A stretch of DNA of 10,368 nucleotides from Holophaga sp. (GTDB lineage: Bacteria; Acidobacteriota; Holophagae; Holophagales; Holophagaceae), in NCBI GenBank assembly GCA_030691225.1, contig JAUYES010000527.1:1-10368 (forward strand), in the 5' to 3' direction. The notes under the pieces are model-generated. The model worked only from the letters and a program-made list of their open reading frames with translations, ran no database searches and was not told the DNA's origin. The position numbers and the translations under genes are program-made. Shown piece after piece: positions 7,064 through 8,413 of the stretch. The first letter of the stretch is position 1, and the number at the start of each line of letters is the position of its first letter.

Positions 7064-7093
7064 TCGACCAAGGTGTGGGCTAGGTCACACAAT
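7064..7093 (+). promoter_or_regulatory. Candidate promoter for the proC leader
   Basis: TCGACC (7064-7069, 4 of 6 to TTGACA), an 18-nt spacer, and CACAAT (7088-7093, 4 of 6 to TATAAT). The predicted start near 7100 coincides with the 5' edge of a long-range helix (7101-7109 with 7193-7202). A second candidate, GTCACA 7084-7089, 17 nt, TACGCT 7107-7112, would start transcription close to 7119, the ATG of the small leader ORF. Both are judged by eye. Confidence 0.35.
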
Positions 7094-7118
7094 CGAAAAG
7101 ACCGGCTACGCTAGAAAC

Positions 7119-7196
7119 ATGACATTTCACTTGGCCCCGAGCCCATGCCCGCTGCCTCGCACCTTGGGTGCGGTGGAAAGGTATGGTTGCCGGTAG
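7119..7196 (+). CDS. Possible proline-rich leader peptide of proC
   Basis: A 25-codon frame from ATG 7119 to TAG 7194-7196. Codons 7, 9, 11 and 13 are all proline (CCG, CCA, CCG, CCT), giving APSPCPLPR directly before the left arm of the 7158-7172 hairpin. A proline-rich leader before a proline-biosynthesis gene is the arrangement expected for ribosome-mediated attenuation. Against it: there is no good Shine-Dalgarno site (only AGAAAC precedes the ATG), C-rich DNA yields Pro codons by chance, and the same frame stays open upstream. A transcript starting near 7119 would make the ORF leaderless, which would remove the need for a ribosome site. Treated as a hypothesis. Confidence 0.3.
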   Translation: MTFHLAPSPCPLPRTLGAVERYGCR

Positions 7197-7222
7197 TCCG
7201 GTATCCCCTCGCTTCTTCTCCC

Positions 7223-7250
7223 GCCCCCGGTTTCCATCCGGGGGCTTTTT
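7223..7250 (+). terminator. Strong intrinsic terminator in front of proC
   Basis: GCCCCCGG (7223-7230) and CCGGGGGC (7238-7245) form a perfect 8-bp GC stem around a 7-nt loop and are followed at once by TTTTT (7246-7250), then CTT. No T-run follows the stem on the other strand, so it acts on plus-strand transcripts only. It ends 12 nt before the proC ATG and directly precedes its ribosome site, the position typical of an attenuator. Confidence 0.8.
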
Positions 7251-7262
7251 CTTGGAGGCACC

Positions 7263-8078
7263 ATGACGCCCCACACAACGCTCGCCGTAATCGGTTTCGG
7301 CACCATGGGCCAAGCCATCTGCCAGGGCCTGGTGGAAACCGGTGGCCTGCCTCCCGAGCGAATCCAAGCCGCCGACCGCCACACCCACGCGCTACAGAAA
7401 CAGGCGGCAAGCCTTGGTATTACCCTGACCGGAAATGCAGCCGCTACGGCCCGAAATGCCGAGATTGTGCTGCTCTGCGTGAAGCCCCGAGAGCTCGGCG
7501 AACTCCTGGAAGGTCTCCAGCGCGAAGGTGCCCTGGATCACAAACCCCTGGTGATCTCCATCGCAGCCGGGGTCGGTTTGAAGTTCCTCGAGGAACACCT
7601 TCCCCAGGGCACTCCCGTCATTCGCGCCATGCCCAACACGCCCTGCTCCGTTCGTTGTGGCATGACGGTGCTTTCACCCGGCCATGCGGCCACCGAGGCC
7701 CATCTCGGACAAGCCCGCCAGTTTTTCGAACCCCTGGGCCGAGTCATGGACCTGGAAGAAAAGCACATGGACGCCGTGACGGGCCTCAGCGCCTCGGGCC
7801 CCGCCTTCATCTTCGTGATCCTGGAAGCCCTCGCCGAAGGCGGCGTGCAATGCGGCCTGCCTCGCGCCGTCGCCATCGAATTGGCCGCTCAGATGACCCT
7901 GGGCGCCGCATCCATGGTGCTGCAAACCGGCAAACATCCCGCCGCCCTCAAGGATGAAGTAACCACGCCCGCCGGGTGCACCATCGCGGGGCTCTTGGCG
8001 CTGGAGGATGGCCGTATTCGTTCCGTGGTGGCGCGCGGCATCGAGCGGGCGACCCAGGTGGCCGCGGGATTGGGCTAA
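7263..8078 (+). CDS. proC: Pyrroline-5-carboxylate reductase
   Basis: 271 residues, close to the usual family length. The enzyme reduces 1-pyrroline-5-carboxylate to L-proline with NAD(P)H, the last step of proline synthesis in the cytoplasm. Seen: the N-terminal Rossmann loop GFGTMG (11-16), VKP (73-75), RAMPNTP (121-127), the helical-domain signature TGLSASGPAF (173-182), and DEVTTPAGCTIAGL (231-244), the substrate-site region. ATG 7263 is preceded by GGAGG (7254-7258) at a short 4-nt spacing. A terminator lies just upstream of the ribosome site, so expression probably depends on read-through or on an undetected promoter. The TAA stop (8076-8078) is the first triplet of a MITE-like inverted repeat, so the original C-terminal end may have been replaced by the insertion. 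Confidence 0.95.
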   Translation: MTPHTTLAVIGFGTMGQAICQGLVETGGLPPERIQAADRHTHALQKQAASLGITLTGNAAATARNAEIVLLCVKPRELGELLEGLQREGALDHKPLVISIAAGVGLKFLEEHLPQGTPVIRAMPNTPCSVRCGMTVLSPGHAATEAHLGQARQFFEPLGRVMDLEEKHMDAVTGLSASGPAFIFVILEALAEGGVQCGLPRAVAIELAAQMTLGAASMVLQTGKHPAALKDEVTTPAGCTIAGLLALEDGRIRSVVARGIERATQVAAGLG

Positions 8079-8108
8079 GGCGCTATCACGGAATAACTAT
8101 GGTGATTG
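8076..8108 (+). repeat. Left terminal inverted repeat of the MITE-like element
   Basis: 33 bp, 30 of which are complementary to 8318-8350. Its first three bases are the proC stop codon. Confidence 0.8.
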
Positions 8109-8317
8109 CTGGTGGTCAGCCGCGTGATCCGACAAGGAGAGCGGCGAAGGGGGATGCGGGACATCCTTCGAGCCGGTCGACGAAGTCGGGCGCGCGGATG
8201 GCCACCAGCCCTACGGGTGCGGGGCGGCGGGCAGCGCCTAGCGTTGTCGATGGCCCTTGACATGGAACCACCATGCCTGCGGGCCATCTCCTACCCAGGC
8301 TTGCCCGGCGCTCTGCA

Positions 8318-8350
8318 CAATCATCATCGTTATTCCGTGACAGCGCCTTA
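8318..8350 (-). repeat. Right terminal inverted repeat of the MITE-like element
   Basis: 33 bp, inverted partner of 8076-8108. It ends 63 bp before the glnS start and contains GTGACA (8337-8342, 5 of 6 to a -35 box), but I see no matching -10 box at the right distance. Confidence 0.8.
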
Positions 8351-8413
8351 GTTGCTGCCACTCCGGCCCTATCCCTGCTAGTACTTATCCTTCGCCTTTT
8401 TTACGGAATCCCC

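Follow-up and report, generated by a model that had tools for sequence, protein, structure and literature searches.

Upstream of proC, the gene for pyrroline-5-carboxylate reductase, a stretch of Holophaga sp. DNA (contig JAUYES010000527.1 of assembly GCA_030691225.1) has a short open reading frame (ORF) with four proline (Pro) codons, followed by an intrinsic terminator. Is translation of this ORF used to sense the supply of proline, and so to set transcription of proC? The whole stretch of 10,368 nucleotides (nt), here termed the window, belongs to a Holophagaceae (Acidobacteriota) draft genome, G000, rated 76% complete. An initial annotation of the window proposed a proline attenuator, and this is supported because the layout recurs in the family, where 34 proC leaders retain it, the Pro codons are in frame and the same type of leader precedes proB. 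With a probability of about 0.82, the proC leader is a ribosome-mediated transcription attenuator sensing charged tRNA-Pro.

Conservation of the proC leader

A search for ProC in 77 family genomes (an order-level search gave the same 77) found a match in 57, and the upstream regions of 56 were read; the match left out, in G063, is a fragment (residues 179-271). The succession of -10 box, ATG, ORF of 20-25 codons, hairpin, terminator and proC is present in 34 of the 56 regions. Leader ATGs were located by a pattern requiring an ATG in 28 of these and by eye in six (G017, G027, G029, G035, G066 and G070). The distance from ATG to the conserved Pro codons is 24, 27, 30 or 33 nt in 25, 4, 2 and 3 leaders respectively, a multiple of three in every case, and all 34 have Pro-x-Pro (P-x-P) in frame, the middle codon being CGC, CGA, CTG, CAG, AAC or CAC (R, L, Q, N or H). 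Invariant columns in the 34-leader alignment, with window numbering, are 7112 (last T of the -10 box), 7149-7150 and 7155-7156 (positions 1 and 2 of Pro codons 11 and 13), 7194 (T of the window stop codon) and 7241-7243 (three G residues of the terminator). The ATG is not among them since the MAFFT alignment leaves it unaligned in some rows. The leaders of G007, G009 and G010 are one G short after the Pro codons and terminate prematurely in a different frame; it seems that only the frame as far as the Pro codons matters. A terminator stem could be picked in all 34, though it is weak in G030 and G054. Relatives were to be compared for conserved Pro codons and for covarying alternative stems: the ORF, its in-frame Pro codons and the terminator are conserved in all 34 leaders, but covariation of the stems is weak, as detailed below.

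Among the nearest named relatives of the window ProC, most bear the label Holophagaceae or Geothrix (Acidobacteriota). The closest, L004, carries the label Deltaproteobacteria, yet its leader is nearly identical to that of the window. A leader was seen by eye at 15 of the 30 nearest named proC loci, largely from the same genomes and chosen on hairpin 1, and in these 15 and the window (16 of 16) the ATG adjoins the -10 box. Among 50 more distant proC loci (L034-L083), where stems were sought within 110 nt or less, two have a terminator-like stem and neither of these has a Pro leader by eye.

Initiation at the leader

A TAnnnT box lies 6 nt before the ATG in 12 of the 34 leaders and 7 nt before it in 16. 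The other six have a weaker box at 7-8 nt, either CATACT (G066 and G070) or nACTnT (G017, G027, G029 and G035). In the window a candidate -35 element, GTCACA at 7084-7089 with a 17 nt spacer, is a weak, by-eye reading. With the ATG 6-8 nt past a -10-like box in all 34, transcription is predicted to begin at or adjoining 7119, and leaderless initiation, the simplest reading of the position of the ATG, is probable. The initial annotation counted the missing ribosome site as a weak point. None is indeed present in the window, but its absence would be accounted for by a start that, shortly after the -10 box, is probably leaderless. There is precedent in other leaders: the ilvBNC leader of Corynebacterium glutamicum begins one nucleotide from the transcription start (PMC11857589), and C. 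diphtheriae has a leaderless ilvB leader (PMC5784534).

proB leaders and the proline pathway

The proC leaders served to make a profile, R1, with which the 77 genomes were scanned. Since the RNAalifold consensus of the leader alignment (A2) has only four pairs, R1 is in effect a sequence profile. It matches leaders before proB in 27 genomes (E 1.1e-9 to 0.00101), the gene behind being that for glutamate 5-kinase (TIGR01027), and 26 of the 27 leaders encode P-x-P (an example of the peptides is MIPVTTLNPRPNHAIPVAGCSGV). Starts of the 27 were picked by script, with L163 and L165 corrected by eye. At E of 1e-3 or less there were 34 matches other than those at proC; the 32 that were fetched (G051:C311 and G052:C8 being left out) comprise 26 at proB, two at asnB, one at pheA, two at an aspartokinase gene and one without assignment (L171). 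Gene identity rests on NCBIfam for one each of ProB, AsnB, PheA and aspartokinase (that of L180) and also for ProB of G065; the other proB loci are matches of the L152 ProB and the remainder were assigned by eye. Sequence comparison shows the parts of the leader, the extent to which they are conserved, the frame and the return of the leader type at proB.

In G055, G066 and G070 proC, proB and proA follow in a row behind the proC leader, and in G054 proC and proB do so. In Geothrix-type genomes proC and proB are unlinked and both have the leader. Searches for ProB and ProA gave nothing in G000 (76% complete), G001 (81%), G014 or G024 (both rated 100%). An ornithine aminotransferase scores above the curated cut-off in G000, G014 and G024, and none does so in G001. 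Because the one pair was not found but the aminotransferase was, proC may be the only proline-dedicated step in genomes such as G000. A proline-responsive switch on proC would be sensible where the gene is possibly ornithine-fed and the sole one dedicated to proline.

Proposed mechanism

The coordinates of the ORF, of its Pro codons and of hairpin 1 given in the initial annotation all agree with the sequence (the ATG is at 7119 and the stop codon TAG at 7194-7196), as does the left arm of the terminator, 7223-7230, which pairs with 7238-7245 through eight GC pairs ahead of a T run from 7246. An antiterminator formed by 7166-7173 with 7221-7228 had also been proposed. That pairing exists, with seven of eight pairs, but the predicted element is larger, with 7164-7186 pairing with 7207-7230 and enclosing the stem at 7188-7203. 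When the ribosome sits on Pro codon 11 and the terminator's right arm is still to be transcribed, this fold has an energy of -31.4 kcal/mol, and a slightly shorter piece before the right arm has -31.1 kcal/mol (z -2.9 versus shuffles). The features are collected in Table 1.

The course of events from the transcription start through translation and stalling to the switch is inferred as follows. Transcription would begin at or adjoining 7119 and a ribosome would start on the leaderless ATG. When proline is scarce, the ribosome would stall at Pro codons 11 and 13 and cover the left arm of hairpin 1, leaving 7164-7186 to pair with 7207-7230, including the left arm of the terminator, and RNA polymerase would continue into proC. 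When proline is ample, the ribosome would reach the TAG and cover approximately 7178-7207 (an assumed footprint) and with it the tip of the antiterminator; alternatively it would leave and hairpin 1 would form. By either route the terminator would then end transcription.

Table 1. Features of the proC leader region in the window
Feature	Position	Strand	Basis or remark
-10 box (TACGCT) of leader promoter	7107..7112	+	TAnnnT-type box before ATG in family leaders
Leader peptide ORF, 25 codons, MTFHLAPSPCPLPRTLGAVERYGCR; probably leaderless start	7119..7196	+	sequence; matching short ORF in 34/56 proC upstream regions
Pro codon 7 (CCG)	7137..7139	+	common to G001; column not invariant
Pro codon 9 (CCA)	7143..7145	+	common to G001; column not invariant
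Pro codon 11 (CCG), conserved	7149..7151	+	bases 1-2 invariant 34/34 (alignment A2); in frame with ATG 34/34
Pro codon 13 (CCT), conserved	7155..7157	+	bases 1-2 invariant 34/34; in frame 34/34
Hairpin 1, putative anti-antiterminator, CGCACC (7158-7163) with GGTGCG (7167-7172)	7158..7172	+	sequence
Predicted antiterminator, 7164-7186 with 7207-7230, around stem 3	7164..7230	+	minimum-energy fold, ribosome on Pro codon 11, terminator right arm not yet made
Stem 3 (TGCCGG/CCGGTA), loop holds stop codon TAG	7188..7203	+	folding
Intrinsic terminator, stem 7223-7245 (7223-7230 with 7238-7245), T run 7246-7250	7223..7250	+	-17.9 kcal/mol
Shine-Dalgarno GGAGG of proC	7254..7258	+	sequence
proC, pyrroline-5-carboxylate reductase	7263..8078	+	Pfam P5CR_dimer 7.1e-38; F420_oxidored

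Directly behind proC the window has a 277-bp element (8075-8351) with 34-nt inverted terminal repeats (91%). A full-length copy, 68% identical, is on C382 of G000 and copies of the ends only are on C264 and C603; the element is perhaps a small mobile repeat or one resembling a miniature inverted-repeat transposable element (MITE).

Leaders with other codons before other genes

Weaker R1 matches and two targeted searches revealed leaders with other codons before pheA, asnB and hisG. The hairpin of pheA leaders, CGC ACC TCG GGT GCG, matches that of the window, CGC ACC TTG GGT GCG, in frame, with Phe codons replacing the Pro codons. Eight pheA leaders were seen and seven counted (L186 was left out); a representative peptide is MTTSRRFFPFSFRTSGARVGGV and that for asnB is MTFSSLRTNRNFNNPLPRANRAWAGEGLT. 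A search around the prephenate dehydratase gene of G000 yielded no Phe leader. The share of Pro is 16.6% in proC leaders (n=34) and 21.3% in proB leaders (n=27), that of Phe 20.4% in pheA leaders (n=7), that of Asn 17.9% in asnB leaders (n=3) and that of His 21.6% in first and 33.3% in second hisG leaders (n=4 each), for hisG has two leaders in tandem in G000, G001, G066 and G070, four of the 13 hisG upstream regions.

The tandem His-codon ORFs are at L206 (G000), L207 (G001), L209 (G070) and L210 (G066). The first encodes MILASRHHASHHVAHRVTGAAF in G000 or MLISRHHASHHVAHRVTGAAF in G001 and the second MTTFTFHHHHAHPPPPG, and each is followed, by eye, by a terminator-like stem, the first of G066 and of G070 having a poor T run. 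At L169, L175 and L178 the leader ORF before asnB contains five Asn codons and is accompanied by a terminator-like stem; this may be an asparagine attenuator. Upstream of the aspartokinase gene at L179, L180, L185 and L187 there is a Thr-rich open frame, LTTTTNITLAIPRGA, with a stop codon and a terminator-like stem; no ATG, GTG or TTG start for it was seen by eye at these four loci.

Weighing of the evidence

Several observations count against proline attenuation at proC. Some concern the window. At least four Pro codons are present in codons 2-15 in 23% of its dinucleotide shuffles, and since 2 kb has three terminator-like sites compared with 2.0 +/- 1.6 in shuffles, a terminator-like stem by itself is weak evidence. 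Taken alone the window layout is not beyond chance; with the relatives (34 of 56) it is. A promoter scan gave no sigma-70-type site for the leader. The antiterminator duplex of the window is ordinary (z +0.42 versus shuffles; 15 of the 34 leaders are below z -1.645), and once the whole RNA is present the terminator prevails at equilibrium in every state (0.98-1.0), as anticipated in the initial annotation, which took the antiterminator to be the weaker of the two. Because the terminator wins at equilibrium, any switch in the window must be kinetic. When stalling at a Pro codon was simulated, with an assumed ribosome footprint of 13 nt ahead of the A site, the terminator stayed at 0.88 or above at equilibrium in 14 of the 34 leaders, the window included. 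In favour of attenuation, it fell from at least 0.88 to below 0.5 in 11 (in G012 from 0.98 to 0.01 and in G021 from 0.98 to 0.06); the outcome was intermediate or unreadable in nine, in five of which (G030, G042, G047, G049 and G054) the picked terminator is not the bare-RNA fold.

Other such observations come from the relatives. The layout was not seen in 22 of the 56 proC upstream regions, and in 15 of the 22 proC follows closely on the end of an upstream gene, the same one each time. G039, which is 100% complete, has no proB or proA matches above cut-off and its proC is without a leader, so that the link of leader to pathway is not strict. Relatives that keep the terminator without the ORF or Pro codons had been named as telling against an attenuator. 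Three loci (L011, L024 and L026) do keep, by eye, a small stem and T run with no ORF, but hairpin 1 is missing from them too, and they give the impression that the entire device was lost. At these three and at L015 the space from the upstream gene to proC has, by eye, a short vestige, either a T run or a small stem plus T run, that suggests deletion of the leader. Covariation is weak or none for each of the four elements (hairpin 1, stem 3, terminator and antiterminator), the best being that of the antiterminator, whose score was matched by eight of 500 shuffles. A hairpin at the place of hairpin 1 in G008 has pairs in 86% of cells over the 34 leaders with little covariation, and a G008 stem near stem 3, inexactly aligned to that of the window, has pairs in 81%. 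The Pro count in frame 0 is not above that of dinucleotide shuffles (mean 3.21 versus 3.33), and frame 2 has more Pro (4.24). An RNAcode-like permutation test of the three frames gave no codon-substitution signal; frame 0 had the best substitution score in 17 Geothrix-type leaders (codons 2-12), but at p 0.33, and with 24 leaders p was 0.50. Furthermore, Pro makes up 23.3% of second hisG leaders, and P-x-P is present in three of three asnB, four of four second hisG and two of seven pheA leaders; some of the P-x-P occurrence may stem from C-rich hairpin arms.

Pro codons slow ribosomes whatever the charging of their tRNA. This, and P-x-P in asnB and second hisG leaders, would suit an attenuator coupled to translation that responds to how fast ribosomes pass Pro codons in general, whether this reflects EF-P status, slow peptide bond formation or global translation, and not to the supply of proline. 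Such a device is improbable, as the leader is on two proline-synthesis genes that are unlinked in Geothrix-type genomes, and in other pathways the leaders also have codons of their own.

A structured RNA with a metabolite or protein as its ligand, the ORF being incidental and its Pro codons a by-product of C-rich stems, is very improbable. It would fit a Pro count equal to that from composition, the missing substitution signal and the near constancy of CCGCGCCCTAGC in most Geothrix-type leaders, but this sequence is altered in G000, G001, G054, G055 and the G042 group, all of which retain the Pro codons and frame, and the ATG adjoins a -10-like box in all 34 leaders. A scan of the whole window and of 7080-7290 gave no Rfam family at curated cut-off. 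The dauA RNA motif (RF04311) reached 26 bits and was rejected, its curated cut-off being 45 bits. A plain terminator or transcription insulator with a chance ORF is barely credible: short ORFs and terminator-like stems arise easily in GC-rich DNA and the three loci above keep only a small stem and T run, but the promoter is predicted to precede the terminator, and 34 leaders repeat the ORF, its frame and its Pro codons, which turn up again before proB.

Relation to known systems

Ribosome-mediated attenuators of amino acid operons include the his, trp, phe, thr, ilv and leu leaders of Proteobacteria. The proC leader is like them in its short ORF with cognate codons, its mutually exclusive stems (here predicted) and its terminator before the structural gene, and unlike them in the amino acid, proline, in the targets, proC and proB, in the phylum, Acidobacteriota, and in a start that is probably leaderless. 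T-box riboswitches precede pro genes of Firmicutes and sense tRNA-Pro charging by binding the tRNA itself. Charging of tRNA-Pro would also be what is sensed for proline genes here, but there was no Rfam T-box match at E up to 1 in the whole window or up to 10 in 7080-7290.

The probable leaderless start is shared with the C. glutamicum ilvBNC attenuator, which starts one nucleotide from the transcription start (PMC11857589); that system is for branched-chain amino acids and is in Actinobacteria. Pro codons in the leader ORFs of Salmonella mgtP and mgtA are described as raising transcription when charged tRNA-Pro falls, and Pro codons 10 and 11 of mgtP as necessary and possibly sufficient (PMC3641672). 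Unlike the proC leader these control Mg2+ transport, and mgtP has a Shine-Dalgarno-like site. Mycobacteria have many leaderless genes, and small upstream ORFs in which Cys codons cluster are presented there as proposed attenuators (PMC4633059); the amino acid is cysteine, not proline, and attenuation is proposed and unproved. A 2010 survey has leader-peptide systems hardly known at the time beyond Proteobacteria and Actinobacteria, and the attenuators that it predicts in phyla such as Acidobacteria almost all without associated functions (PMC2965389). The initial annotation had remarked that attenuation is not commonly described for the last gene of proline synthesis. In keeping with this, a literature search, with most subscription papers outside it, found no leader-peptide attenuation of proline synthesis and none in Acidobacteria. 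The proC leader would be of an attenuator type already known, with proline synthesis a target not met in the literature searched.

Implications

On whether Holophagaceae control much of their amino acid synthesis by related leaderless leader-peptide attenuators, with codons swapped on a shared scaffold, we are evenly divided. If they do, the one scaffold would serve with Pro codons for proC and proB, Phe codons for pheA, Asn codons for asnB and His codons, twice in tandem, for hisG. The leaders are concrete, testable sites in named Geothrix strains, among them G. campi, G. fuzhouensis and G. limicola, with leaders at L009, L014 and L017. With such a shared scaffold they would amount to a translation-based regulon in a phylum whose attenuator functions were, in the 2010 survey, almost all unassigned.
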